From the NCBI GenBank assembly GCA_014238855.1, contig JABAAH010000011.1, positions 1 through 64,000 on the forward strand: a stretch of 64,000 bases of DNA, written 5' to 3'. Shown in pieces: positions 5,203-21,626 of the stretch. The notes below the pieces were generated by a model. The model was not told the DNA's origin, did not search any database, and was given only the letters and a program-made list of their open reading frames with translations. A program made the translations under genes and the position numbers. Numbering within the stretch: the first letter of the stretch is position 1; every line of letters begins with the position of its first letter. The DNA comes from Planctomycetota bacterium. GTDB lineage: Bacteria; Planctomycetota; Planctomycetia; Pirellulales; UBA1268.

Positions 5203-5916
5203 TCACTTCCCATTGCGTTGCCACCGAACCTTAGGATCAGACCGGAGACCTCGCAACTCTTCTCGCAATTCACTCGGGGTCATTCGAATTTTTCTTTCGA
5301 AACGGAATCGCTGAAGCCACCAATCTGCAGCAGCAACCACACCCGCGACCAACAGGATACCCCAAAGATAATTCACTGCTGGAGACAAGAGTTCACTGCC
5401 CTGCCCTTCATCAGCATAAGGGTGCGCTAAAAAATCACCCAACACAACAACAAGTGGGCCTACTAATAACCAAGCAGCCGATGCGAGAATTGCTAAACCA
5501 ATAAAAGAGCTCACGGCCCGAACAGCGGTCACTGTGGATACAATACGTTGCAAACCAACCTTCGGATCAATCCGTTCGAACCGGAACGCAAGACGGTCAA
5601 GCCGCCATGCAGCTCCATCAAAAATCGTCCGAACGAGTAGCAAGACTCCGAGAGCGAGTATGACCACTACAACTGTGGGGAAAATAATCGGCAATAAGAT
5701 GTACGAACTTCCACCCTTCCCAGTCATATGGATATTTTCAATTGCAGCAACGGTAGCTGAAGCCGTCGTGCGACACCAAACTGGCATCGCAACCAAGACA
5801 ACTGCTGCCATCGCAGGCCATGCCAACACAGCACCGTTTGGAGCAAGCCCCCTATTGCGAGCGTCCTCCCTTCGTCGTGGTGTGGCTGGCAGGGTTCGAT
5901 CTTGGCTTTCACTCAT
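5203..5916 (-). CDS. flhB: FlhB-like export gate protein lacking the C-terminal domain
   Basis: The 237-residue product matches the N-terminal membrane half of FlhB: an Arg-rich start (TPRRREDARNRG), four hydrophobic segments and the post-membrane linker (MTPSELREELRGLRSDPKV). FlhB and its non-flagellar homologues normally run to about 350 residues and carry an NPTH autocleavage site that switches export specificity. Here a stop codon follows the linker directly, and the next gene (purB) begins three bases later on the other strand, so that domain is absent. The ATG at 5916 has GAGGGG about seven bases upstream. The start overlaps the end of fliR by eight bases. The truncation is seen in the sequence; its functional meaning is inference. 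Confidence 0.8.
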   Translation of the reverse strand: MSESQDRTLPATPRRREDARNRGLAPNGAVLAWPAMAAVVLVAMPVWCRTTASATVAAIENIHMTGKGGSSYILLPIIFPTVVVVILALGVLLLVRTIFDGAAWRLDRLAFRFERIDPKVGLQRIVSTVTAVRAVSSFIGLAILASAAWLLVGPLVVVLGDFLAHPYADEGQGSELLSPAVNYLWGILLVAGVVAAADWWLQRFRFERKIRMTPSELREELRGLRSDPKVRWQRNGK

Positions 5917-6778
5917 TGGCCTGCCCCTCTTTCTCAAAACTGGATAGAGCGGCTTGATCGATTACAGGATCTGATAATTCAAAGGTGGCTTCAAACGGAA
6001 CACGGAGATACTCCCCTGAATTACCTGCCCACTGCTGACTTCCGACAATCAGTCCACCAAGCATTACAGCAGCAGCAATACCTTGAAGAACTCCTGGTCC
6101 AGGCGTGGTGTCAACTGAACGCATACAGATTGTTGCAGTGAGATGTGCCGTCATTACAGCAACCAGAAGTGGAGCAGCAATCATAAGTGCCATTTGCAAA
6201 CAAAGTGATGGCAACTCAATGAGCCTCATCACAATTGGCAGTCCAAACAAGTCACTTGATTGAGCAAGTGCTCCTACTGGCAGTTGGAGGAAACTATCAA
6301 TGAGCCCAGCAACTACCAACTGCTGACCACCAGCAGCAACAAATGAAGCAAGGCCTACCCATCCGCAAAGACGTGCTACGCCAGGGCCACCACTACCGCC
6401 CGGAGTAAAAACATCTGCCCAATTAAGCCCCGCAACACTCGCGAGCAAACTACCAGAAGACTCAAAGACACTGACGAAAAAACTGACCGTGATACCAAGA
6501 CAACAGCCAACGAGTAGTTCCGAAAATACCATTGGTACAAATGCTTGTTCAGTTACACCTTGCAACTGTGACACTGAAATTGCAACCGGTGCAGCAGCAA
6601 GCCCAAGGACTAAAAGGAGTGCAATCCTGAGGTGGACGGTTCCACCAGGAAACATCCGCAACCCACCACTAAACAGAACACCAGTAATGCGAGCCAGTAC
6701 ACCAACAGCGATGATCATCGATGATTGTGAAAACAAATCGAACAGTCCACCAGTGCTTAGAGTTTCAGCAACGAGCAA
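5909..6778 (-). CDS. fliR: Flagellar-type export protein FliR
   Basis: This 289-residue, very hydrophobic protein has the six-span pattern of FliR/SctT, which joins FliP and FliQ in the helical core of the type III export gate. Family-like segments include LARITGVLFSGG near residue 28 and the F-ELLVG-CLG stretch near residue 90. The best start is a TTG at 6778, six bases after GGAG; the next ATG lies 20 codons in and would cut the first helix. It overlaps flhB and lies 35 bases after fliQ, consistent with co-translation. The periplasmic or membrane assignment comes from family knowledge. Confidence 0.87.
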   Translation of the reverse strand: MLVAETLSTGGLFDLFSQSSMIIAVGVLARITGVLFSGGLRMFPGGTVHLRIALLLVLGLAAAPVAISVSQLQGVTEQAFVPMVFSELLVGCCLGITVSFFVSVFESSGSLLASVAGLNWADVFTPGGSGGPGVARLCGWVGLASFVAAGGQQLVVAGLIDSFLQLPVGALAQSSDLFGLPIVMRLIELPSLCLQMALMIAAPLLVAVMTAHLTATICMRSVDTTPGPGVLQGIAAAVMLGGLIVGSQQWAGNSGEYLRVPFEATFELSDPVIDQAALSSFEKEGQANE

Positions 6779-6813
6779 AACACACTCCGGAAGTACAGGA
6801 AACAGAAACTCAG

Positions 6814-7068
6814 CTAGGGTGAAAGAACGCTGGCCTGAAAAAGACTGACAAACCTGTCAATCATCCAACCTCCAGTCAAAAACATGACAGCCACCATGGC
6901 AACAAGCCTGGGAACCATGCCAATAAGTGGCTCGTGGATTCCTGTAGCTGACTGTAAAACGCCAACAACAAGAGCTACTAATAAGCCCGCCAAGAGGGCC
7001 GGAGCCAGCAGCAACCCGCCTTCGAGAAGTGAAGACCGAACGAGTGGAACAAGATCAAAGTCTGCCAT
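6814..7068 (-). CDS. fliQ: Flagellar-type export protein FliQ
   Basis: This 84-residue protein has two long hydrophobic hairpin helices. The first contains LLAPALLAGLLVALVVGVLQ, followed by the short polar loop SATGIHEPLI, matching FliQ/SctS (usually 86-90 residues). Several FliQ copies wrap around FliP and FliR in the export gate. The ATG at 7068 has AGGG upstream at usable spacing; an extension to 7110 has no good site. It sits 53 bases after fliP. Confidence 0.88.
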   Translation of the reverse strand: MADFDLVPLVRSSLLEGGLLLAPALLAGLLVALVVGVLQSATGIHEPLIGMVPRLVAMVAVMFLTGGWMIDRFVSLFQASVLSP

Positions 7069-7121
7069 ACAAAAATTCCCTAAAACCGCTGGCTTGCAAA
7101 GAGAACACAAAAAAACTCACA

Positions 7122-7997
7122 CTACGACGTGTTCAGGCACACCCCATCGAGCAAGCCACGAACAACCAGAGACCAACCATCTGCCATAACAAACACAAGC
7201 AGTTTCAACGGCAGAGACACAATCGTAGGAGGCAACATAACGAGGCCTGTTGAAACCACAAGAGTTGCAACAACACAGTCCAACACAAGAAAAGGAAGCA
7301 GGATTCGAAAGCCGATCATGAACGCGACCTCTAGTTCACTCACAAGAAAAGCAGGCAAAAGCACCTCTGTAGGTATTTGGTCGTAACTATCGACTTGATT
7401 TACAACACCCGGATGTCGGCGGAGAAATAATGCAACGGTGTCACGGTTACCCGCCTCCTCTATCTGATGAGACATCCATCGGCGTATAGGAAGACTCCCT
7501 CGATCAAAAGCCTCCTGCAAGGAAACCTCTCCAGCCTGGTAAGGCTCAACCCCTGCTTCATAGGCAGTTGTCCAAATCGGCCACATCACAAGAGCAGATA
7601 GAAACAATGCCAACGATGTAATAATCTGAGTGGACGGCAAATTAGCAGTACCGATGGCTTGTCGTGTAAGTGACAAAACAACCGACATTCGGACAAAGCA
7701 TGTTGTCATGAGCAGCAAAGCCGGCGCAAGACTCATCACACCGAAAGTTATTGCTGCCGGTAGCAGACGGTCAGCCCACCGCCGATCAAAAATATTAGAA
7801 AAATCCTCTGGCAACTGAACCGCCGTCGAAGTCGAAACACTTGTGTCAATGTCTTCGTAATCAGGCCTACCTTCGTCAGCACTCGGACCAACTCCATCGA
7901 CAGGTGATTGAACATCCTGACCCTGGCTCGCTGATACACTCAAGGCCAGCACAACTACCAAAATGAGTCTTTTCCACACCAACGTCGAAGTAGTCAT
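7122..7997 (-). CDS. fliP: Flagellar-type export protein FliP
   Basis: The product is 291 residues: a signal peptide, a variable acidic region (about residues 26-75), then the conserved FliP core. Diagnostic stretches are LLLMTTCFVRMSVVLSLTR near residue 94, the periplasmic segment with RRWMSHQIEE, the helix FMIGFRILLPFLVLD near residue 227, and MLPPTIVSLPLKLLVFVMAD near the C-terminus. FliP forms the pentameric core of the export channel. The ATG overlaps the fliO stop codon (TAATG), with GAGG upstream, indicating translational coupling. Confidence 0.93.
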   Translation of the reverse strand: MTTSTLVWKRLILVVVLALSVSASQGQDVQSPVDGVGPSADEGRPDYEDIDTSVSTSTAVQLPEDFSNIFDRRWADRLLPAAITFGVMSLAPALLLMTTCFVRMSVVLSLTRQAIGTANLPSTQIITSLALFLSALVMWPIWTTAYEAGVEPYQAGEVSLQEAFDRGSLPIRRWMSHQIEEAGNRDTVALFLRRHPGVVNQVDSYDQIPTEVLLPAFLVSELEVAFMIGFRILLPFLVLDCVVATLVVSTGLVMLPPTIVSLPLKLLVFVMADGWSLVVRGLLDGVCLNTS

Positions 7998-8602
7998 TAT
8001 GCCACCTCGGAATGAGTCGTGCTGACGGGCTCAAGAACTGGAGAGCCACTCACATCGTGGGAGTCATTGCCAACTGACAGGCGGCTAGCCGAAGGCCGCA
8101 AAGTCTGCTCTCCACGACAGGCAGCAGCAATCCACTCCGTAGCTAAAGGATCGTCCAACTCTGAGAGTGTCTTCGGGCCACCACTTCCAACACTCACTAG
8201 GAGAGTCTTAGGGCCAAAACGAACAATCCTCACTGCTTGACCACTGCCTAAGGTTGATTCACCAAGTAACTCGAACACATCACTCGGTATTTTGAACACG
8301 GTTCGACGACTAAATAGGCGAATACTTACCAACACGGCTCCCGCAACACCCACAATCGCCCACGCCTTCCAATCAAAAGCCATCTCATTACCAAAAGACA
8401 AGGTGTTCAATTTGCCCGAAGGCTGGGTTTCTGAAGTTTGCTCCAAAGACAGAGAAACTTCAGGGAATTCGGTAGGCAAATGAGTTTTGGCATCGAGCTC
8501 ACCTGCGTACAGCAAGGTATGAGAACAGATAAGAATTGCCAGGAAGCAGATTCCTTCGCGCAACGGCACTTTATAAAATGGAGGATTTCTCATAGGGCTC
8601 AC
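7997..8602 (-). CDS. fliO: FliO-like export assembly protein
   Basis: This protein of about 201 residues has an N-terminal signal-like helix, a low-conservation periplasmic stretch, one transmembrane helix (AWAIVGVAGAVLVSIRLF, about residues 77-94) and a cytoplasmic FliO-type beta domain (LLGESTLGSGQAVRIVRFG). FliO assists FliP assembly and is poorly conserved, so the position between fliF and fliP supports the call. The GTG at 8602 overlaps the fliF stop (TAGTG); an ATG nine bases later is an equally good start. Confidence 0.75.
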   Translation of the reverse strand: MSPMRNPPFYKVPLREGICFLAILICSHTLLYAGELDAKTHLPTEFPEVSLSLEQTSETQPSGKLNTLSFGNEMAFDWKAWAIVGVAGAVLVSIRLFSRRTVFKIPSDVFELLGESTLGSGQAVRIVRFGPKTLLVSVGSGGPKTLSELDDPLATEWIAAACRGEQTLRPSASRLSVGNDSHDVSGSPVLEPVSTTHSEVA

Positions 8603-10047
8603 TATGCCTCGGCTTGCTCTTCATGCTGGTGCGACCGACGAAGCGTGGCCCAATTAATCAAGTCGCGACTATCACCGGGCAACGTATCAGACGGCTGCTC
8701 TCGTATTCGCCACCTTGGCCACCACATGAACACTACAGAAAACCCCAACGCCAGGCACCCATAGAGCGCGATCGGTTTTCCATTCATCACAGATCGAATC
8801 ACCGACTCTGAACCGATTGGCAAAAACATTGATAATGAATACGTCGGTGCAGGAACCGGCTTACCCTCACCAGACTTCAATTGATTCGGCGTATCATCTA
8901 TGTCCAGAGTGCTGGCAGCCGTACTGAGTCCGGGGTATCGAGTTATTGTGACCACTGCCCGGCCCCACGGTTTCGTTGCAGGAACAAGCCCAACAACGAG
9001 TGTCCGAAGCCGTTTAATTTCAGCACCTGCAGGATCATCTACATCTGCATAAACCTGTTCACACAAACGGTCAATGTACGTTTCCGGAATGGCTACAGAA
9101 ACGTAGACAACTTGCCCAACATCTCGCGCACCCTGATCACTGCCCAACCCAACGCCCACAATTGCAGGCACATTAGCAGCCGCCCGTGTATCTCGAACCG
9201 CCGCCTCCTCTTTACCACCAGCCACTTGCTCAATAGCGGAGGCATTTACTTCAACAACAACTCCAGAAATAAAGGCCAATGCCTGACGGATTTTTATAGT
9301 CACATGCTGCTCGTACGCAACAGCTCGTGCTCGATCCGGATCAGTCGTGATGAACTCAGCATCTGACAACAGCGGTCCGTCATACACTTGTCCACTTTGG
9401 AGATCAGTGAGCGCCACTTGCTCCACACGAAGACCTGCAATTGAAGACGCAACAAGCACCCGAATCGCCTCAACGCGATGCCGATCAATTTCTAGTTCAG
9501 GCTGCGTACGGATACTTACGCTTGCAGTTTGCGTAGAAGCATTACCATCACGAAATAAACCACCTGCATTACTTCCTGAATAAAGCACTGCAGCCTGCTC
9601 GATACCTGGCATGGTTCGAATCACTAATGATAATTCTTCCTGAGTAGCTATTCGTACCAACTCAGCCTGCGTCTCCTTACTTCGCCAAGGGCTGTCGCTC
9701 TCAACTGCTCGCCGCAGGCTTCCTCCGAATTCTGGAGGGAGAGCGCCCGCATCAACAATCGCTCTCAAATAGCCACTCTGGCGACCACGATCCACATAAA
9801 GACGGCCTGCATCCACACGATATGACTCAAGACCGGAGCGATCGAAAACAGCCTCAATGACCGCAAGATCCGCCGGGCCAAGAACTGCCCCGACCAGCAA
9901 CTCAACCTCACCACCTGGCTGCTTTTCAGGGAACTCGATAAGCAGGCTACCTGCTACCGCGGCAACCAACAAAAGACTGAAGCCGACAACCTGAATAGGC
10001 CGGACTCCAGAATAACTCTTTGACGCATTTTCGATCGCTGCATCCAT
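8602..10047 (-). CDS. fliF: FliF-like MS-ring protein with short tail
   Basis: The 481-residue product has a first transmembrane helix at about residues 20-36, a periplasmic region with ring-building-motif-like sequence (ELSLVIRTMPGIEQAAVLYS, about 139-158), and a second transmembrane helix at about 420-437. This is the FliF/SctJ arrangement. Canonical FliF is about 550 residues and ends in a cytoplasmic tail whose last segment binds the switch protein FliG. Here only about 40 residues follow the second helix, with no obvious acidic FliG-binding end. No fliG, fliM, fliN or fliI lies in this window. It is either a divergent flagellar base or the base of a related export device. Confidence 0.78.
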   Translation of the reverse strand: MDAAIENASKSYSGVRPIQVVGFSLLLVAAVAGSLLIEFPEKQPGGEVELLVGAVLGPADLAVIEAVFDRSGLESYRVDAGRLYVDRGRQSGYLRAIVDAGALPPEFGGSLRRAVESDSPWRSKETQAELVRIATQEELSLVIRTMPGIEQAAVLYSGSNAGGLFRDGNASTQTASVSIRTQPELEIDRHRVEAIRVLVASSIAGLRVEQVALTDLQSGQVYDGPLLSDAEFITTDPDRARAVAYEQHVTIKIRQALAFISGVVVEVNASAIEQVAGGKEEAAVRDTRAAANVPAIVGVGLGSDQGARDVGQVVYVSVAIPETYIDRLCEQVYADVDDPAGAEIKRLRTLVVGLVPATKPWGRAVVTITRYPGLSTAASTLDIDDTPNQLKSGEGKPVPAPTYSLSMFLPIGSESVIRSVMNGKPIALYGCLALGFSVVFMWWPRWRIREQPSDTLPGDSRDLINWATLRRSHQHEEQAEA

Positions 10048-10074: not shown

Positions 10075-10581
10075 TTAAGCAGCCATGCGCTGCGAAACCA
10101 CTCTTGGGAAACGCAACGTCACCGCTACACCACCCTCAGCACAATCATCAAGCCGCATGTCGCCATGAACCTGATCAAGCAATTCCTGCTGAGCAACTGC
10201 ATGCACACGACCAACAACACCTCCGCCAACCTTTTGTCGCTCTGAAAGAGAGGATCCGCTGTCGGCAATTTCTATCTCAATGCAATCTGCATACTCAACA
10301 CTTGTAATAAGAACTTCTGCAGTTCTCGCCATAGCGGCACTTCCAGCAGCAGCCCGAACCGCATCACAGAGCCACACATTAAGCAACTCTTCCAAAACTA
10401 CAACATTTCCCTCAAACCTATGCGCGAGAGGAACGTCAACTGACACATGAGGCAAGGGCACACCCGAATCGGCATGCTGACGCTGTAAGCCACTCACCAC
10501 ATTTCCTACAATTCCTCGCAACGCTGGCGACTGGCCGTAATGACTTACAGTTTGTTTTGCCGAGATAGATTCTGTCATCAT
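10075..10581 (-). CDS. GHKL-type ATPase-domain protein, stand-alone
   Basis: This 168-residue protein resembles a histidine-kinase-like ATPase domain without a kinase histidine box. An N-box-like helix (VVLEELLNVWLCDAVRAA), a degenerate ATP lid motif (ADSGSSLSE in place of DxGxG) and a glycine-rich G2-like stretch (VGGGVVGRVHAVAQQ) are followed by a C-terminal strand pair (GGVAVTLRFPRV). There is no transmembrane or receiver domain. It lies 27 bases upstream of fliF and probably in the same transcript. An anti-sigma-type or regulatory ATP-binding role is possible but not demonstrated. Confidence 0.6.
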   Translation of the reverse strand: MMTESISAKQTVSHYGQSPALRGIVGNVVSGLQRQHADSGVPLPHVSVDVPLAHRFEGNVVVLEELLNVWLCDAVRAAAGSAAMARTAEVLITSVEYADCIEIEIADSGSSLSERQKVGGGVVGRVHAVAQQELLDQVHGDMRLDDCAEGGVAVTLRFPRVVSQRMAA

Positions 10582-10610: not shown

Positions 10611-11327
10611 CTAGACGAGAGCAGTCACCTGATCCCCTGGAACGCGGCAAACCTCATCCATAATCCACCGATCAATATCTCCGACCATATCTACCAAAGG
10701 CACCTGCTGAGTCCCATCACTTCTTTTATTTCGATAGACACGCATAGACATCAATCCTCCTGCAGCATGAAACAGTCGTAATGTTTGATTCACGTCACAA
10801 TCATTCAACAAATCACCTGTTTCTGTTTTTTCATCACAACAAAGCATCATCGGAAGTGAACGAATACGATCAAGCTGTCCCAGCAATCTCTCACGCAGAG
10901 GAAACCGGCCATTAATTGAGACCACTCCAGCAAACGACTCTGGGTTCTGACAGGCATACCGAAAGGCATTTTCTCCCCCTGCCCCAACACCAATGATATA
11001 AACCCTGCGAGAGTGAACACTGTATCGACTCATCATTCCGTCAATAGCTTGAAAACAACTCTCTGAATCGGACGGGACAGCAGGCAGCACCGCGAGGTAA
11101 TTCCTCAGACTCATTCGCATCATGGTGCGACCTAGATCAAAGTGCGTGTCACCTGATTGTGGTAGCCATACAAGCAGCGGATAATCATACCCAGACTCAT
11201 AACCTAATGGTAAAAACAGCTGTTCTGATTCACCCGAAGGCAAAGCCTCATTATTGCACGTAAAGCCACTGCTGTTTGGTGAACAAGGATTGGGTTCATA
11301 ATGGAATACCGTCGACTGTTTCACCAT
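10611..11327 (-). CDS. Alpha/beta-hydrolase-fold protein, nucleophile apparently lost
   Basis: The product is 238 residues from the ATG at 11327, which has GGAG eight bases upstream; a start at 11399 lacks such a site. It resembles the esterase/PHB-depolymerase-like hydrolases that handle a signal-less cytoplasmic domain: a strand YPLLVWLPQSG near residue 48, and helix FQAIDGMMSRYSV followed by RVYIIGVGAGGENAFRYA. In active members that elbow reads GxSxGG. Here it reads GVGAGG, with glycine where the catalytic serine should be. It may therefore be a non-catalytic binding or regulatory protein. It lies immediately upstream of the GHKL gene on the same strand. Confidence 0.6.
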   Translation of the reverse strand: MVKQSTVFHYEPNPCSPNSSGFTCNNEALPSGESEQLFLPLGYESGYDYPLLVWLPQSGDTHFDLGRTMMRMSLRNYLAVLPAVPSDSESCFQAIDGMMSRYSVHSRRVYIIGVGAGGENAFRYACQNPESFAGVVSINGRFPLRERLLGQLDRIRSLPMMLCCDEKTETGDLLNDCDVNQTLRLFHAAGGLMSMRVYRNKRSDGTQQVPLVDMVGDIDRWIMDEVCRVPGDQVTALV

Positions 11328-11530
11328 TTCAGATTCTCCATGAAACCTTTTGCACGAATACGAAGTGTGTTTACTTGCGCGTACCACAAGGCGTTCCACT
11401 CACTGCAACACACCCGAGGGTTTCTAACGCAGTCACAGACTCCGGGCAATGGCAGCATTACCGGGTGAAAACAAAGAATCTTTGGGAAATCTGGTGAATA
11501 GAGGGGAACTGGAGAAGGCAAGGCCTTCGG

Positions 11531-14057: not shown

Positions 14058-14423
14058 TCAGGTCGCTGCTGTTGACATAGGCGTTTCATGCGACCGTTCC
14101 AAAGACTCATCTATTGCATTTTGTGCATCAGGTATCGATGCATCTGACCCATCTGGTGCAGAACTTCCGCCCCCACTGTCACCATTATTGGCCTGCTGTT
14201 GTCGTCGCGTTTCTCGCCAGACATAAAGTCCGAATGATCCTGCAAGCGTAAACGGCATAGCCATCATTAAAAGGATACTATAAAAATATCCGCGGGCTAT
14301 GTTTGCACCTTCACTGTCGGCCGCCGCCAGCCCATCTTTACAGCCGGGGCAACCCAATGTTTCAGTGCTTATTGCAAGGCAAACAATAAGTAAAAACGAC
14401 CATACTATGATGCGGCTTCTCAT
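14058..14423 (-). CDS. Small membrane protein with CPGCKDG motif
   Basis: The product is 121 residues: a signal peptide, then the paired-cysteine motif CPGCKDGL at about residues 25-32, one transmembrane helix (YSILLMMAMPFTLAGSFGLYVW, about 48-69), and an acidic, Gln/Ser-rich cytoplasmic tail. The exported CxxC pair next to a membrane helix could bind a metal or be redox-active. Its location downstream of the oxidase cluster suggests, but does not show, a link to cytochrome oxidase assembly. Confidence 0.65.
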   Translation of the reverse strand: MRSRIIVWSFLLIVCLAISTETLGCPGCKDGLAAADSEGANIARGYFYSILLMMAMPFTLAGSFGLYVWRETRRQQQANNGDSGGGSSAPDGSDASIPDAQNAIDESLERSHETPMSTAAT

Positions 14424-14999
14424 ACATAAAGTATAGACAATTCATTGCACTGAGACACCAATAATCAGTGTCGAACAAAAGTGCACTCGAAACAGTGCTC
14501 AGATACGAATCTCCCGCATGCCTCTTCAATTCCAGTACCACATTGGGAAGAAATGCGAGCCGGCTCACTAGCCAGGCAGCCGAAACGCTTTTTAAGATTG
14601 GGTCAATGCCGCTATCCAGATGTCCAAGACAGCCGTGGGCCACATGACCGATAGCAGCCGCCTGCGACACGGAATATGAATATGGAAAACTGTTTATTTA
14701 TACGTGAACTTGCACCAGAGACATTGCATCAGCATTAAAACGCGAAAGAAACATATTGGCCGAAAACCACGAAGGCAACAACCAGCGAACCGAAAAAATC
14801 ACAGCGAAAATACGCAGTAGATTGACACTTTCGCGAAAGAGCACCTGAAGCCTGATCAAAGTCTCACTCTGACTGAAACCACTTATCCATAGGTCGACCT
14901 GCACTTCAGTAAGCATAAGCAACAACGGCTAGCCCCACGAATCCTTCAACAAACCTGATCATGCTGAGACGAACGAAACGAAGATGAAATGCAAGTAAC
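14424..14999. other. Gene-free gap downstream of the respiratory cluster
   Basis: No supported gene was found in these 576 bases. Two open frames on the minus strand (14362-14670 and 14698-14925) lack family resemblance and good ribosome sites. No GC-rich hairpin with a T-run was visible to end the long upstream operon. Confidence 0.45.
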
Positions 15000-15497
15000 T
15001 TATACCAAGGAGGGACATTGGATGTTTTCATGGGTCGCCGCTTCGGCCTGCTTGTTCGAACTGGGGAAAAAAATATAAACCATAAAGTAGATGACTACTC
15101 CGGTTACTGACACGTACAACCAGATTGGCACAGTTATTTTTCCCAACTGCCGATGACGATGCCACTTTCCACGAAACGCAAGAACAAACATGGCAATGGC
15201 TAACACTGGAACCGCAACTGCCAGCACAATATGAGAAGCTAAAATACAGAGATAGATAGTGCGTATAACACCCTGCCCACCAAACGTGACATGCCCTACA
15301 AGATAGTGATAGGTCAAATACGACACGAGAAAAATTGTTGAAACTGAAAAAGCAGCGACCATAACCGCGCGATGTGCTTTCCAATTGCCTTGGGCAATCA
15401 GCACCCATCCCGTCACAAGTAGTATCGCTGCAATTGCATTGAGTATTGCATTGAGCGTCGCAAGTGGATGAATTGCTAAGGGAAAACCGTATTCCAT
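15000..15497 (-). CDS. DUF420 family membrane protein
   Basis: This 165-residue protein has four to five transmembrane helices and matches DUF420 (YozB/CtaM-like), a family encoded beside heme-copper oxidases and implicated in their assembly. Conserved histidines are present in hydrophobic context: AIHPLATLNAILNA at the N-terminus, SYLTYHYLVGH near residue 60 and KWHRHRQLGKIT near residue 111. The ATG overlaps the stop of the SCO gene (TGATG), showing translational coupling. It is the last gene of the oxidase cluster. Confidence 0.85.
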   Translation of the reverse strand: MEYGFPLAIHPLATLNAILNAIAAILLVTGWVLIAQGNWKAHRAVMVAAFSVSTIFLVSYLTYHYLVGHVTFGGQGVIRTIYLCILASHIVLAVAVPVLAIAMFVLAFRGKWHRHRQLGKITVPIWLYVSVTGVVIYFMVYIFFPSSNKQAEAATHENIQCPSLV

Positions 15498-16174
15498 CAG
15501 TCGGCTTCCTCAACAATTACCGTTATATCTTCCTCTGCGAGGACATCACGAATCAGTTTCTTCAGCCGATCCACTCTATCTTCTTGAAGGAGATGGTAGC
15601 TACCGCGCAGCCTTCCCTGCCGATCAAAGACAGCTCCCCGTTCAGAATGCACTCCAATTTCAACGGGCAACAAAAATGTCTTCGTGCCCACTCTTTTAAT
15701 AACGTCCATGTCACCAGTAAGAAATTTCCATCGCTGCGAGTCTGCTTCAAAGCGATCTGCATAGTGAGCAAGTGCGGCAGGAGTATCATTGTCAGGATCA
15801 CAGGTCAGGCTTACCGCAATGAAATTTGGGTCATCTATTTCTCGCAAGATATCAGCAATTGCTTGATTTTCACGAAAACACGGGCCTGGACAGTTTGCAA
15901 AAAAAACACTGCCCATCCACACTTTGCCTTTCAAAGTTGCTGAATCAAACTGCTTCCCTTGTTGGTCAGTGAGTTCAAATCTTGCCGCAGGCTCACCCTT
16001 CTTAAATACTGGCAATGCAACGTCGGGTGAACTTCCAACGTCACCTGTGCCTTTCGATTTCAGCAAGGTTTCCGTATTTGTTGAATCACTCGGGCTTCCG
16101 CAACCAATAAGGCACAACATCAGGAGCGATAGTGCGATTCGTGACAGAGAATAAGTTACTTCTTTAATGTTCAT
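15497..16174 (-). CDS. SCO1/SenC-type copper chaperone lipoprotein
   Basis: The product is 225 residues from the ATG at 16174 (AAGGTGG upstream). A lipoprotein signal ends in LMLCLIGCG. The thioredoxin-like domain carries the copper-binding CxxxC as NCPGPC (about residue 100), with the third ligand, a histidine, in VEIGVHSERG near residue 175. SCO proteins deliver copper to CuA of cytochrome oxidase subunit II, which is encoded in the same cluster. The start overlaps the end of the subunit IV gene by 11 bases. Confidence 0.9.
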   Translation of the reverse strand: MNIKEVTYSLSRIALSLLMLCLIGCGSPSDSTNTETLLKSKGTGDVGSSPDVALPVFKKGEPAARFELTDQQGKQFDSATLKGKVWMGSVFFANCPGPCFRENQAIADILREIDDPNFIAVSLTCDPDNDTPAALAHYADRFEADSQRWKFLTGDMDVIKRVGTKTFLLPVEIGVHSERGAVFDRQGRLRGSYHLLQEDRVDRLKKLIRDVLAEEDITVIVEEAD

Positions 16175-16676
16175 GTTTCCCACCTTCATCAAATAAATCA
16201 GAAGATGCAGCTTTTTCTAAAAGCAAGACATCCGAATCACGAGCCATATGAAGAGCCCGTTCCTGCGAAACCATACGATTCCGAAGACCAATATCCGGTA
16301 TCAGCATGATTGCAAGAAAAATTGCCATCATCGCTGCAGGAATTGTTAAGACATATTTCCAATTGGCTTCCCAGAGAACGTGCATGAAGAAGAGAACAAC
16401 TAACAGCGCTTTGGTACATGAAACTGCCATCATGAAAGCCCAACCGACCTGCGGTTCGTCTTTCCATGGCCAATACGATGAGTATGTCAAGAAAGACATT
16501 GTCGTTAAGAAGCAAAGAGCGGCAAATACAGCCATGTATTGCATGATTCCGCCATGCCCTTCGTGCGACTGCTCACCATCTTCTCCGCCAGTTTCAATTT
16601 CTTCAGGCAACGCGCCATGCGATGTGACTGGACCATGCGCGACATTTGAACTGCTGTCAGTTTCTGAATTGTTCAT
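16164..16676 (-). CDS. ctaF: Cytochrome c oxidase subunit IV
   Basis: This 170-residue protein has an acidic, histidine-containing N-terminus (about residues 1-45) followed by three transmembrane helices. The segment CTKALLVVLFFMHVLWEANW (about 86-105) is characteristic of the bacterial subunit IV family (COX4_pro). The C-terminal 45 residues form an additional soluble tail. The position directly after subunit III and before SCO supports the call. This subunit stabilises the oxidase and has no redox centre. Confidence 0.86.
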   Translation of the reverse strand: MNNSETDSSSNVAHGPVTSHGALPEEIETGGEDGEQSHEGHGGIMQYMAVFAALCFLTTMSFLTYSSYWPWKDEPQVGWAFMMAVSCTKALLVVLFFMHVLWEANWKYVLTIPAAMMAIFLAIMLIPDIGLRNRMVSQERALHMARDSDVLLLEKAASSDLFDEGGKHEH

Positions 16677-16721
16677 AATTGCTTTCTCGCAACACTCGTA
16701 AAGTACTTTCAGGAAATAAAT

Positions 16722-17663
16722 TTAAAACAGGTAGAGGAGCGGGAAGAGAAATATCCAAACAAGATCGACAAAATGCCAATAAAGACCCGCATTCTCAATC
16801 ATGCCGGCTCTTTTCGGCCCCAATTCATATCGAAGTAAGATGCCGAATACAATTAAACCGACGATGACATGAATTGCATGGAATCCGGTGAGGAAAAAAT
16901 ATGTACTCGCCCACATATTGCCACCCGGTATGACTGCCGGTAATTGAAGCCATCCAAACGTGTCATTAAGGCCGCCGCCATGCCCATGACTATCAGCGCC
17001 CTCTCCTGGCAACGGCATAATCTGATCTGCGACCACCGCTAAGTCGAATGCCTGTTGGTCCGGATTGTTCACCATATCCCTGACTTGCTTAAGCCTCCGG
17101 CGACCTGTTAACTCGGCATCTGAAAGCTCTCCTTCGGGCCGCGCATCAAGCTCTTTCATTTTTGCGAGGATGGCTGGATCACTCAACCTTGCCCGCACAG
17201 CTGAGCCGTAATAAAGATCCGGGCGCTCATAAATTCGACCACGTGGAGCCCACGGATAAATACCGTGATCGAATTTTGATGAATACTCGTAGCCTTTGAC
17301 GCCAAGAAATAGAGACCCGAGCACAAGCGTGATGAGCATCCAAGATTTTGCGAGCGATCGCTTGTTTGCCCTCGCCGCTTCAAGCGATAGCACAACGGTG
17401 ACACTGGAACAAATAAGCACAAATGTGTTGAATGCACCAATCGGCTCACTGAGATGAACATGGTGGGGTTTCGGCCATACCGCCGCACCAAAACGCAATA
17501 CGACATAACTACCCAGCAAGGCGGCAAAAAACATGATTTCTGTTGACAGGAATAACCACATAATGAGCTTGCCACGAGAGAGTGGCAAACCGGGCTGATA
17601 CTGAAGGACTGGCCCATGATGTCCGTGACTCTCATGCCCAATCGATGCAGCTGGTGAATTCAT
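16722..17663 (-). CDS. ctaE: Cytochrome c oxidase subunit III
   Basis: The product is 313 residues. Subunit III features include [20 protein letters not shown] near the N-terminus and the C-terminal [15 protein letters not shown] with final helix [19 protein letters not shown]. The His-rich N-terminal stretch ([13 protein letters not shown]) follows the chosen ATG at 17663. About 100 hydrophilic residues are inserted between the third and fourth conserved helices (about 135-235), including a Glu/Arg-rich segment and a short GHGHGG-like patch. Usual bacterial subunit III is about 200-270 residues. Confidence 0.9.
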
Positions 17664-17719
17664 AGAACCTGTAGGATGTTGAAAGACTTGGGGGGTAAAT
17701 TCGAAACCAAAAACACACA

Positions 17720-18712
17720 CTAGCCGGACAATACTTTTGGAATGCTAAAGGCAATTGCCGACGTCATAAGGACCAAAAGTACACCAAGCGAAGCGAACAG
17801 GAGAATACGAGCGGATCGATCATCCCGCCGGAAGGCAAAGTTTACGGAAACAAGTACATAGAGGGTAGATGCCAATGCAGCAGCAAGAAACATACGAATA
17901 CTACCTGAAGGAACTGCCATCGACAGACTCACAGGGACCATAGCAAGAGATGCTGCCAATGATTGGCCTGCTGCTCGTAAACCACTAGGGTCGGTGACTG
18001 TGAGCATTTTGAGACCAGCAAGACGGTATTGATCACGATAAAGCCACGCGATTGCCATAAAGTGCGGAAATTGCCATAAGTAAAGCACCGTACCAAGAGC
18101 AGCGACTGCCAGCGTTGCTGACACATTCCCTGTGAGAAATTGCTGCTGTCCATCAACAGCAAACCAGCCAATCGCTATTGGAAGGCTTCCGGCTACCGCA
18201 CCGACCGCCGTATTGAGCGGGGTGATTCTTTTAAGCGGTGTGTAGACAGCCACATACAGTATCCACGTGACTATCGCCGCACAGGCGGCCTGCCAGTTCC
18301 CTGCCAACCACACGCACCCACTACCTCCCAAAAAACTTCCGGCAACAAGCATCCACGCGGTTCGTTGTGACAAGCGACCAGCAGCAAGAGGGCGTGACTC
18401 AGTACGGGGCATCAACCTATCTGTACGTCTCTCAAGAATCTGATTGGCAATACTGGAACTCGCTGCTACGGCAGCCGTGCCAACCAAAACTCCAACAACT
18501 GACAACCAATGTAATGCTCGTGAACCTGATGTAAGCCACATTGCAGCAAACACGGTCACGAGCACCATCATCGCGATACGCGGCCTTACAAGCTGAGAGA
18601 TATCCGCCATCACAGAGCAGTTTGCTGCAATGCGAGGCATCGCTGAGGCATCGGCCATGACCGTCACATGTCGAGATCCTTCAAGATGGTGTTGAGCAGC
18701 AAACCGATTCAT
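17720..18712 (-). CDS. ctaB: Protoheme IX farnesyltransferase (heme O synthase)
   Basis: This 330-residue UbiA-family enzyme farnesylates heme B to heme O. The first prenyl-diphosphate-binding region reads [20 protein letters not shown] (about residues 94-113), and the conserved second loop reads [19 protein letters not shown] (about 213-231). About nine transmembrane helices are predicted. The ATG at 18712 overlaps the ctaA stop as ATGA; a longer frame reaching 18781 would lie inside ctaA. Its product is the substrate of CtaA, encoded just upstream. Confidence 0.92.
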
Positions 18713-19761
18713 GCGATCACCCTTTGCCTCGAAACGAACGGAGAACCTGCAGCATTCGGTAACCCACCACTCAGAATACACAGAACAACACTTGCTCCGA
18801 GAATCATCATTCCAAGAACCACATGGCCTGTTACAACAAGCGACGACAGGCTGCTTCTAGCTACAACTACGGTCGATGTTTCCGGCACTCTATTAGCAAT
18901 AGAGTCTGGTAACAAACCAAGCGGCAAGCCCCAGCTCACAACCCAGGCGGCGAACCCAAGAAGCACTTGCATGCACACAAAAAAGAGTATTGATGATGAC
19001 AGGAACCGCTGTCCGAAGCCACGATCGCGGGCAAAAGGCAGCAAACCAAATGATTCAGCAACTGCGGCCAGACTTAACACCGCAACCGTTGCAGCGCCTA
19101 TGACATGAAATGCAACAAGCCAACGAAACGCACCCGGACCAATCGCTGGATCTAAATGCCGCAACTGTGCTCCCGCTACTAACTGCATGTATGAAGCGAA
19201 CATGAGGCCGCTAGCAAGCCAACTACCAAGGGCTATCCCTCTTTGAACTTCACCTTCCCTGAACGAATTTGTTTGAAACCGACGTGATGTCAACGTTGCT
19301 GTAGCAACTGCAACTGAAAAAAATAACGGCCCCGTACACGCATGAATCTTCGCAACGGTCTTGTCGTCGAGCAAAACGCGAAGCCCACCGAGTAATCCTT
19401 GAAGCACCACAAGAAAAACTGCCGCTACAACCAACCAGCGAACCGCAGGAGTCTGCCTTGTTTTCCAAGCAACAGCTGCGAGAACAAGCGAAATGACACC
19501 GACAGAGGCGCCAAGCAACCGGTGACCGTGCTCTAAAAAAAGATCCCACGGCCCATAGAACCACTCGGCAAAAGGAAATAGGAACATATTGTGTCCATAT
19601 GTCCCCGGCCAATCAGGCACAGCCATCGCTGCCTCATATGTCGTAACAAGTGCACCAAATGTCAGAAGAACACTGGTTACAGCAACAAGACAACAAGCGA
19701 TCCAATGAGCCACGTTAGGGCTCCTTGCTGCGACAGATTGCGAACTCGTTATTTCTTGCAT
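18709..19761 (-). CDS. ctaA: Heme A synthase
   Basis: This 350-residue COX15/CtaA-family protein converts heme O to heme A. Eight transmembrane helices are apparent. The four conserved histidine regions are present: EHGHRLLG (about residue 78), KIHACTGPLFF (about 138), AFHVIGAATV in the second half and TGHVVLGMMILG near the C-terminus. The ATG at 19761 is preferred over an in-frame TTG nine bases earlier. It lies 29 bases after the oxidase subunit I gene and overlaps ctaB. Confidence 0.92.
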   Translation of the reverse strand: MQEITSSQSVAARSPNVAHWIACCLVAVTSVLLTFGALVTTYEAAMAVPDWPGTYGHNMFLFPFAEWFYGPWDLFLEHGHRLLGASVGVISLVLAAVAWKTRQTPAVRWLVVAAVFLVVLQGLLGGLRVLLDDKTVAKIHACTGPLFFSVAVATATLTSRRFQTNSFREGEVQRGIALGSWLASGLMFASYMQLVAGAQLRHLDPAIGPGAFRWLVAFHVIGAATVAVLSLAAVAESFGLLPFARDRGFGQRFLSSSILFFVCMQVLLGFAAWVVSWGLPLGLLPDSIANRVPETSTVVVARSSLSSLVVTGHVVLGMMILGASVVLCILSGGLPNAAGSPFVSRQRVIA

Positions 19762-19790
19762 GACAAACAAATGGGCAAAGGGACAACTGC

Positions 19791-21626
19791 TCAGTGGGCA
19801 GCATCTGCTGCTGCCGTTGCTGCTGGATTAGGAGGATCCGTCTGCATGAGATGATCAGATTCGATTCCCGGAACGGAGTACTCGTACGGCCCACGATGAA
19901 CAATCGGTTGAAAGTCAAAGTTGCCATGGCCAGGAGGACTTGGCGCCGTCCATTCTAGCGTGTTTGAATTCCAAGGATTTCGACCGGCTATCGGCCCATA
20001 AAACATGCTCCAGAAAAAATTCACAGCAAAGATAATCTGAGTCGCAACCATGCCCATAGCGCAATATGTCATGAACGCATTAAGCGGCTGTAGATGATGG
20101 AACGTTTCATAGTGATACGCATCAGCGAGTCTCCGAGGGAAACCAACCGCTCCCAAAATGTGCATCGTGAAAAACGTGCCATTCAGGAAAATAAATGTGA
20201 GGAAGAAATGCACCTTTCCCCAGAACTCATTCATTGTTCGCCCAAACATTTTTGGAAACCAAAAATAGATTGCAGCCCACACACCCATTGCAGTACCTGC
20301 GAAGAGGACATAATGAAAATGAGCCACGATGAAATATGTATCGTGAATAAAAATATCTACTGGGGTGGCGGCCATAAAAATACCAGACAAACCACCAATG
20401 ATGAACATTGAAACGAACGACAATGCAAACAACATCGATGTCGTAAACTGAATCTTTCCACCCCAGATTGTCCCGAGCCAATTGAATGTTTTCACAGCAC
20501 TCGGCAACGCAATCATCATTGTGGAGACCATAAAAGTAACCCCCAGAGCCGGATTCATACCCGACATAAACATATGGTGCCCCCATACTATAAATCCTAG
20601 ACCTGCTATACCTGCTACCGAATAGACCATCGGGCGGTAGCCAAATAATGGCTTTCTAGCAAAGCACGTCAGAATGTCTGAAACCATGCCCATTGCCGGC
20701 AAGATCATGATGTACACCGCTGGGTGGCTGTAAAACCAAAACAGGTGCTGCCATAGGAGTGGTTGCCCACCTCCTGCTGTTGCAACGGCGTTATTTACAA
20801 TATTTCCCTCAGGAGTAAAAAACCCTGTTCCAATCGTTCGGTCAGCTAACTGCATAAACCCGGCAGCGGTGAGAACAGGTAGTGCAAAAGCCTGCAAAAT
20901 AGCCGTAATAAACATTGACCAAATAGTCATTGGCAGGCGGAACATCGTCATGCCTGGTGCGCGCATCAGAATTATTGTGGTCATGTAATTCACACTTCCA
21001 AGCATCGAGGACACACCAACGAAAGTAAGTCCAATGAGCCAAAGTGTTTGGCCCCACCCAGCACCGGGAGACGAATTCACGTTTGTTGAAAGCGTAGGAT
21101 AACTTGTCCAGCCACTTGAAGCCGCCCCGCCTTCAACAAAGAAACTGGCTCCGAACGCAATAAACGCTGGCCACATGAACCAATAGCTCAGCATATTGAG
21201 CGTAGGAAATGCCATGTCGTCCGCACCAATCATAAGCGGAATAAGAAAATTCCCGAACGCGCCAGCAAGTATCGGAATGATTACGAGGAAAATCATCACC
21301 GTCGCATGCATGGTAAAGAGCATCGTATAAAACTCTGGCGACATCTGGCCTCCTTGTTGAGCAAAAAGTTTGCCAACAACAGGAACATCAGACCATGGCC
21401 AAGCAACTTGCCAACGAACAGCAAGCGCAAGCAATCCGCCAATAAGAAACCACAGGAGCGTTGAAAAAAGAAACTGCAGACCAATCACTTTGTGATCTTT
21501 CGAAAAAACATAGGTCGAAAGAAAGGTTGACACCTTCCTGGCCGTAGACGGCTGGGCATGAACTATTACTTCATGCTTCTGCGGCGAATCTTGGACGCTT
21601 GTCGGTTTCGTATCTGCGGTACTCAC
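19791..21626 (-). CDS. ctaD: Cytochrome c oxidase subunit I (A2-type)
   Basis: This 611-residue heme-copper oxidase subunit has 12 or more transmembrane helices. Key residues are visible: the heme a ligand in MLFTMHATVMIF, the CuB histidine with the cross-linked tyrosine in YSHPAVYIMILP, the HH pair in WGHHMFMSGM, and the heme a/a3 ligands in HDTYFIVAHFHYVLF. The helix VI motif is YSHPAVY rather than GHPEVY, which is the A2 subfamily pattern with the proton-channel glutamate replaced. It follows subunit II with a 72-base gap. Confidence 0.96.
   Translation of the reverse strand: MSTADTKPTSVQDSPQKHEVIVHAQPSTARKVSTFLSTYVFSKDHKVIGLQFLFSTLLWFLIGGLLALAVRWQVAWPWSDVPVVGKLFAQQGGQMSPEFYTMLFTMHATVMIFLVIIPILAGAFGNFLIPLMIGADDMAFPTLNMLSYWFMWPAFIAFGASFFVEGGAASSGWTSYPTLSTNVNSSPGAGWGQTLWLIGLTFVGVSSMLGSVNYMTTIILMRAPGMTMFRLPMTIWSMFITAILQAFALPVLTAAGFMQLADRTIGTGFFTPEGNIVNNAVATAGGGQPLLWQHLFWFYSHPAVYIMILPAMGMVSDILTCFARKPLFGYRPMVYSVAGIAGLGFIVWGHHMFMSGMNPALGVTFMVSTMMIALPSAVKTFNWLGTIWGGKIQFTTSMLFALSFVSMFIIGGLSGIFMAATPVDIFIHDTYFIVAHFHYVLFAGTAMGVWAAIYFWFPKMFGRTMNEFWGKVHFFLTFIFLNGTFFTMHILGAVGFPRRLADAYHYETFHHLQPLNAFMTYCAMGMVATQIIFAVNFFWSMFYGPIAGRNPWNSNTLEWTAPSPPGHGNFDFQPIVHRGPYEYSVPGIESDHLMQTDPPNPAATAAADAAH

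Follow-up and report, generated by a model that had tools for sequence, protein, structure and literature searches.

A reduced flagellar export gate retained across a family of Planctomycetes that has lost its flagella

Introduction

What does the export gate of a flagellum do in bacteria in which no flagellum can be found? The question is raised by a stretch of 64,000 nucleotides (the window) from a Planctomycetota bacterium of the order Pirellulales, known from a draft metagenome bin (G000) of 3.1 Mb in 218 contigs that is 90.9% complete. On the minus strand, from position 10047 to 5203, Pfam matches and open reading frames place fliF, fliO, fliP, fliQ, fliR and a short flhB in that order, all six as an original prediction from the letters alone had described them. 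FliP, FliQ and FliR together with the membrane domain of FlhB constitute the export gate of type III secretion (PMC7064499). The prediction allowed for either a divergent flagellum with scattered genes or a simplified export platform, and our analysis supports the latter: flagella are lost family-wide in these small-genome water Planctomycetes, and the export gate is retained under clear selection.

Results

Flagellar genes are missing from the window genome and from its family

Searches of the window genome with the FliMN_C profile and with Flg_bb_rod, which covers rod and hook proteins, gave no match. Four FliI-like matches proved to be AtpD (F1 beta), AtpA (F1 alpha) and two Rho proteins, leaving no FliI/SctN ATPase, and a flagellin match on contig C152 (14.1 bits) was rejected as under the cut-off and broken by a stop. 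FliG, FliH, FliJ, FliL, FliK and MotAB are missing at the locus; FliG, FliH, FliJ and MotAB were not searched genome-wide. FlhA is found on another contig (C207) as a protein of 733 residues that is matched end to end by the FlhA model, contains the AIDA(D/E) stretch and includes the cytoplasmic domain, the known docking site for export substrates. The genes that the original prediction listed as missing locally are indeed missing from the locus; for FliMN and FliI this extends to the whole genome, whereas flhA is encoded elsewhere. Its suggestion that further genes be sought elsewhere in the genome yielded flhA and a sigma factor stump, and no fliI, flagellin, rod or FliMN gene.

We then surveyed 217 genomes of the order, 41 of them from the window's family; family counts for rod, flagellin and FlhA were taken over 72 genomes. 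FlhB was present in 38 of the 41 family genomes and FlhA in 65 of 72, including all 34 of good quality. FliMN and FliI were each found in none (0/41), rod genes likewise (0/72, including 0/34 good genomes), and flagellin never exceeded the cut-off (0/72, with one sub-threshold match). Across the whole order FliMN (166/217), FliI (162/217) and rod genes (129/217) are common, which indicates that the searches work. Since both the loss and the retention are so consistent across the family, incomplete assembly cannot explain the pattern.

The sigma factor stump (104 residues, cut by the contig end) adjoins flhA on C207 and scores best with WhiG and FliA/WhiG models; the full-length sigma factors that neighbour flhA in relatives score above the FliA/WhiG cut-off. 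A FliA/WhiG-type sigma factor accompanies flhA at C207 (L002, 1-313), L104, L106 and L107 despite the lack of any flagellin found. A scan for sigma-28 promoters gave only matches with two mismatches, none of them upstream of the operon. The other flank of flhA carries, in several genomes, a gene for a small, weakly PsbP-like protein. One bin of the same genus (L064; G244:C272) has a second, canonical FlhA and an NPTH-bearing FlhB, most likely from contamination (listed at 5% for this bin).

FlhB ends before its switch domain

The window FlhB aligns with residues 4-242 of solved FlhBs (376-415 residues), that is, with the membrane domain and linker, and then ends. It has neither the NPT cleavage site nor FlhBc, the self-cleaving C-terminal switch domain. 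An FlhBc hidden behind a frameshift or encoded apart was ruled out, because flhB stands tail to tail with a convergent purB-like gene across a gap of 3 bases and the genome holds a single PF01312 match. A stop near the same position was found again in relatives. In the survey, NPT(E/H) was present in the flagellar FlhBs of the order (L116/L061 were unread, the pattern having printed another match), and no NPT site was found in the family FlhBs surveyed or in the listed full-length FlhBs of genomes of the order without rod matches. The switch seems to have been disabled before its domain was lost.

Other arrangements of FlhB were seen. Full-length FlhBs without the NPT motif occur at L122, L123 and L143-L150, all of this order and with no Flg_bb_rod match. 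At L030-L032 and L034-L037 a frame of 583-687 residues combines the truncated FlhB with a TPR protein bearing a lipobox-like GSGC motif, and many other members of the family have a homologous TPR gene of its own, no more than a few kb from flhB.

The FliF tail and the FliP gasket are altered throughout the family

FliF had been predicted to have almost no cytoplasmic tail, and indeed only 38 residues follow its second transmembrane helix, compared with 68-103 in the unfused FliFs of FliG-keeping relatives in which both helices were called. The FliFs of flagellated loci end in an EDPxxAxxILxxWIG-type sequence (10/10 by eye, 7 by a stricter pattern), as do those of unfused intermediate loci described below (7/7). 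This end, the established FliG-binding end of FliF, was found in 0 of 32 family copies. In its place, 25 of the 32 carry a short tryptophan motif by a loose pattern (IDW or INW, SWK-like in some; a few rows have fused or misread ends), with the INW form in the window. The family-wide loss of the tail motif fits the loss of the cytoplasmic (C) ring. An AlphaFold model of FliF had low overall confidence (mean predicted local distance difference test score, pLDDT, 62; predicted template modelling score, pTM, 0.29), and its best fold matches in the PDB were FliF rings of the membrane-supramembrane (MS) type; a phmmer search with FliF against PDB sequences gave no match.

The gasket of FliP is also changed, from G-M-x-M to G-L-V-M in the window. 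Met-x-Met was present in the flagellated and intermediate FliPs read, and in every family copy read the first methionine is replaced by leucine (LVM in 24, LVT in 2, LIT in 1); five further family FliPs printed have LGM, and five more of that group were not read singly. This methionine is 99% conserved among FliPs, and in the Salmonella FliP gasket function dropped with the number of methionines (PMC8239009). Both the FliP change and the FliF tail are clade-specific and conserved, not random. In the family, many FliF tails and the kinase remnants described below have Ala-Ala as their last residues (e.g. RRLAA, RMAA), an ending similar to a ClpXP degradation signal.

The operon is under purifying selection

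The same gene order recurs with intact frames in some 36 named loci and 12 genus-level groups, and the layout is therefore not a product of chance. Pairwise comparison with two relatives gave ratios of nonsynonymous to synonymous substitution rates (dN/dS) of 0.08-0.30 for eight operon genes, with FliQ at 0.08-0.11. Three neighbouring housekeeping genes had lower values (0.03-0.10). The operon genes are clearly under purifying selection, which together with the conserved order argues against simple decay and suggests that the gate by itself has a job in cells of this family.

The locus descends from a Planctomycete flagellar operon

Flagellated loci of the order run kinase, sigma54-type regulator, three small genes, FliF, FliG, FliH, FliI, FliJ, FliK, and then FlgD, FlgE, MotA, MotB, FliL, FliN, FliO, FliP, FliQ, FliR, FlhB. 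This order was read at L111-L121 from FliK/FlgE to FlhB and at L151-L160 for the upstream part; the regulator assignment comes from a family search in L153 and from position and size at other loci, and the three small genes are taken as FlgB, FlgC and FliE from size and position rather than family search. Genomes of other families without rod matches have an intermediate order, [hydrolase-like], kinase, FliF, FliG, FliH, FliI, FliJ, FliMN, FliO, FliP, FliQ, FliR, FlhB, although not every such locus shows the whole row. FlhB in these intermediates is either full length without NPT (L122, L123, L144, L145) or truncated (L096, L097, L100, L101). The hydrolase-like gene was present at L100, L101, L145, L131, L138 and L139, elsewhere lay outside the stretch or was not found, and was not found at flagellated loci. 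At L131, L138 and L139, in other families and with no rod matches, FliF and FliG apparently share one frame (818, 855 and 563 residues).

The locus of the window family further lacks FliG-H-I-J-N, and the operon is closed up there. The states are collinear, and each equals the preceding one minus a block; the best explanation is that a Planctomycete flagellar operon lost its genes step by step. They suggest that axial, stator and regulator genes went first, followed by the FlhB switch and then by FliG-H-I-J-N.

Model scores and phylogeny place the locus in the same way. Every component scores nearer to flagellar than to injectisome models, with Sct matches weak and secondary; window FliP reached 214.6 bits with NCBIfam fliP versus 148.7 with yscR, and FliR was nearer to fliR than to SctT models. 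In a tree of the gate proteins the family is a single clade (support 100) and groups with the flagellar sequences of Planctomycetes to the exclusion of the outgroup (97), and intermediate forms are scattered among flagellated ones, a pattern that suggests that reduction happened repeatedly within the order. A single origin of all non-flagellar forms was disfavoured (approximately unbiased, AU, test, p 0.02, for a group named after seeing the tree and on a quick tree with long branches). Its long stem may be what places the family as sister to the others. Synteny and tree show the locus to be a stripped remnant of a Planctomycete flagellar export operon. The original prediction had also raised the prospect of a new system: flagellin, rod and FliMN genes are indeed absent, but the origin is not unrelated to flagella, given the descent that synteny and tree establish.

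Gene layout and neighbouring genes

The conserved unit reaches upstream to 11399, with a kinase remnant and a hydrolase-like gene that occur in the same order in relatives (Table 1). The H box, which holds the phospho-accepting histidine, is gone from the kinase and present in its flagellated counterparts. The nucleophile position of the hydrolase-like protein is not serine in any of the family and intermediate copies listed, and its AlphaFold model (pLDDT 73, pTM 0.74) has an esterase fold. With catalytic residues missing, we rejected both as active enzymes; the hydrolase-like protein is a probable accessory protein of the gate.

The FliO call also rests on gene position and on FliO-FliP fusions in relatives. 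FliO and FliP form one frame of ~450-560 residues in many family members (L012, L014, L017, L029-L038). Relatives suggest a FliQ start ~14 codons downstream of the called one (84 residues), and the probable start of FlhB is codon 8 (MSESQ...). Among the gate-bearing loci are three with plancto2, plancto3 and plancto5 bin-series names, the series of PMC6461901. Elsewhere in the window, at 14058-21626, the open reading frame list shows by eye CoxA-like, heme synthesis-like and SCO-like genes, a cytochrome oxidase region ordinary for aerobes.

Table 1. Genes of the conserved unit in the window
Feature	Positions	Strand	Length (aa)	Evidence
FliF (MS-ring protein), two membrane helices and periplasmic ring-building domains	8602..10047	-	481	PF01514, E 6e-14
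FliO (gate assembly factor)	7997..8602	-	201	Pfam E 7e-4, NCBIfam FliO E 8e-5, both under cut-off
FliP (pore subunit)	7122..7997	-	291	Pfam E 5e-63
FliQ (pore subunit)	6814..7110	-	98 as called	Pfam E 1e-16
FliR (pore subunit)	5909..6778	-	289	Pfam E 2e-19
FlhB, membrane domain only	5203..5937	-	244 as called	Pfam E 1e-26, profile 1-232/335
Remnant of flagellar sensor kinase, degenerate ATPase-like domain only	10075..10581	-		Related by BLAST to the complete kinases that lie upstream of fliF where relatives are flagellated
Alpha/beta-hydrolase-like protein, no serine nucleophile	10611..11399	-		AlphaFold model matches esterases

Discussion

We favour, with moderate confidence, the reading that the locus encodes a flagellum-derived, ATPase-free type III gate driven by the proton-motive force, and we infer that it exports protein. 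FliP, FliQ, FliR, the FlhB membrane domain and an FlhA ring would sit inside the FliF ring in the inner membrane, with FlhA coupling export to proton flow and the proton-motive force as sole energy source. Salmonella mutants carry out ATPase-free type III export of this kind when the proton-motive force and substrate level are raised (PMC4230889). Only one class of substrate would be expected, since a gate that has neither FlhBc nor FliK nor a hook has no switch to make, and cargo would probably end up in the periplasm, as no rod was found. As probable cytoplasmic adaptors, the hydrolase-like protein and the kinase remnant could, for example, deliver substrate in place of FliH-I-J. Expression of the substrate may be under the control of the FliA-type sigma factor encoded next to flhA.

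Several points weigh against protein export by such a gate. No substrate was identified. FlhB/SctU has been described as essential for all type III secretion and is reported to touch substrates just before the gate with its C-terminal domain, which is gone here (PMC7064499). The 99%-conserved first gasket methionine is leucine in all family copies read, and from this change together with the loss of FlhBc it follows that efficient classical export is doubtful. Moreover, the genomes are draft metagenome bins, and FliG, FliH, FliJ, MotAB, FliE, FliD and secretins were outside the genome-wide searches.

A platform that moves no protein substrate, either a nanotube base (the CORE complex) or a regulated small-molecule conduit, we regard as a minority possibility. 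The retained FliP, FliQ, FliR, FlhA and FlhB make up the core export apparatus, for which work cited in PMC9380563 and PMC7064499 reports a link with nanotubes in other bacteria. The altered gasket and the missing ATPase would also suit such a platform. FlhA, however, keeps its full cytoplasmic domain with the substrate docking site, FliF is kept as well, and no sequence feature points to nanotubes. A decaying relic without function appears unlikely. Little of the machine is left, both the kinase and the hydrolase-like protein lack residues needed for catalysis, and the FliP gasket and FlhB would count as degraded in a flagellum, but intact frames and a shared order across so many loci and genus-level groups, the low dN/dS values and clade-specific changes that are themselves conserved are not what decay would leave.

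That a real flagellum exists, with its remaining genes scattered or in the missing ~9% of the bin, is very improbable. The fragmented, incomplete assembly, with flhA and the sigma factor stump on another contig, would allow for it, yet the family's good-quality genomes all have flhA and none of them a rod gene, FliMN and FliI are absent from every family genome searched, FlhB is without the domain needed for hook/filament switching, FliF is without the tail motif seen in relatives that have FliG, and no gap is left in the operon at the places that the other genes occupy in relatives. The original prediction's divergent flagellum with scattered genes thus falls, given that rod/hook, flagellin, FliMN and FliI are absent from the genome and the family searched, with positive controls in the order. 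Just as improbable is a classical non-flagellar (injectisome) type III system. An export gate and inner ring without flagellin do occur in injectisomes, and there are weak secondary matches to Sct models, but flagellar models score higher for every component, the genome has neither an ATPase nor a FliN/SctQ-type domain, and synteny and tree place the locus with Planctomycete flagella.

We also put forward, tentatively, a more novel reading, in which graded and repeated reduction of the flagellum within one order has turned the type III core into a third machine, distinct from both flagellum and injectisome. It would be an inner-membrane conduit with neither ATPase nor switch, and its cargo would be a single periplasmic protein or small molecules rather than a structural protein of the axis. 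What the family holds looks like a minimal type III gate of natural origin, one with no ATPase, C ring, specificity switch or axial structure, and relatives nearby preserve intermediate states. This makes two questions testable, namely what an export gate does by itself and how a secretion device arises from a flagellum, possibly by a route besides that of the injectisome. For structural studies, the FliP gasket and the FliF tail offer direct predictions through their clade-specific changes.

Comparison with known systems

Loss of flagella in freshwater Planctomycetes has been reported before, with the apparatus present only in Nemodlikiaceae and three other bins, in a study whose flagella passages do not mention a retained gate (PMC6461901). 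No description of such a gate was found in the literature searched, a partial collection. A close likeness is to the flagellar type III secretion systems (fT3SS) of the same order (e.g. L094, L095, L111-L121), with which it shares FliF, FliO, FliP, FliQ, FliR, the FlhB membrane domain, FlhA and their relative order; here no FlhBc/NPT, FliMN, FliI, rod, hook or filament was found, and the FliF tail and gasket are altered.

The non-flagellar type III secretion system (NF-T3SS) of Myxococcales is likewise conserved, vertically inherited and flagellum-derived, has no rod, hook, secretin or needle, and has been argued, on the strength of its conservation, to work (Abby and Rocha 2012, PMC3459982). 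That system sits in the NF-T3SS clade, whereas the Planctomycete gate scores as flagellar and branches with Planctomycete flagella; Abby and Rocha listed Planctomycetes under flagella and not under NF-T3SS (PMC3459982). Lysobacter enzymogenes, non-flagellated, keeps flagellar export genes that are reported to serve twitching and antifungal toxin secretion (PMC9927559), but these include fliI and flhB, whereas the Planctomycete family is without the ATPase and the FlhB switch domain. The nanotube CORE complex consists of FliP, FliQ, FliR, FlhA and FlhB, all present here too; in contrast to it, FliF is kept here and FlhB is without its cytoplasmic domain. Finally, Kaplan et al. (2022, PMC9380563) described a hat-like inner-membrane structure that is tied to FliP/FlhA and was seen in no species lacking fT3SS genes. 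FliF does not form the periplasmic part of that structure, in contrast to the Planctomycete gate, and a link between the two is possible.

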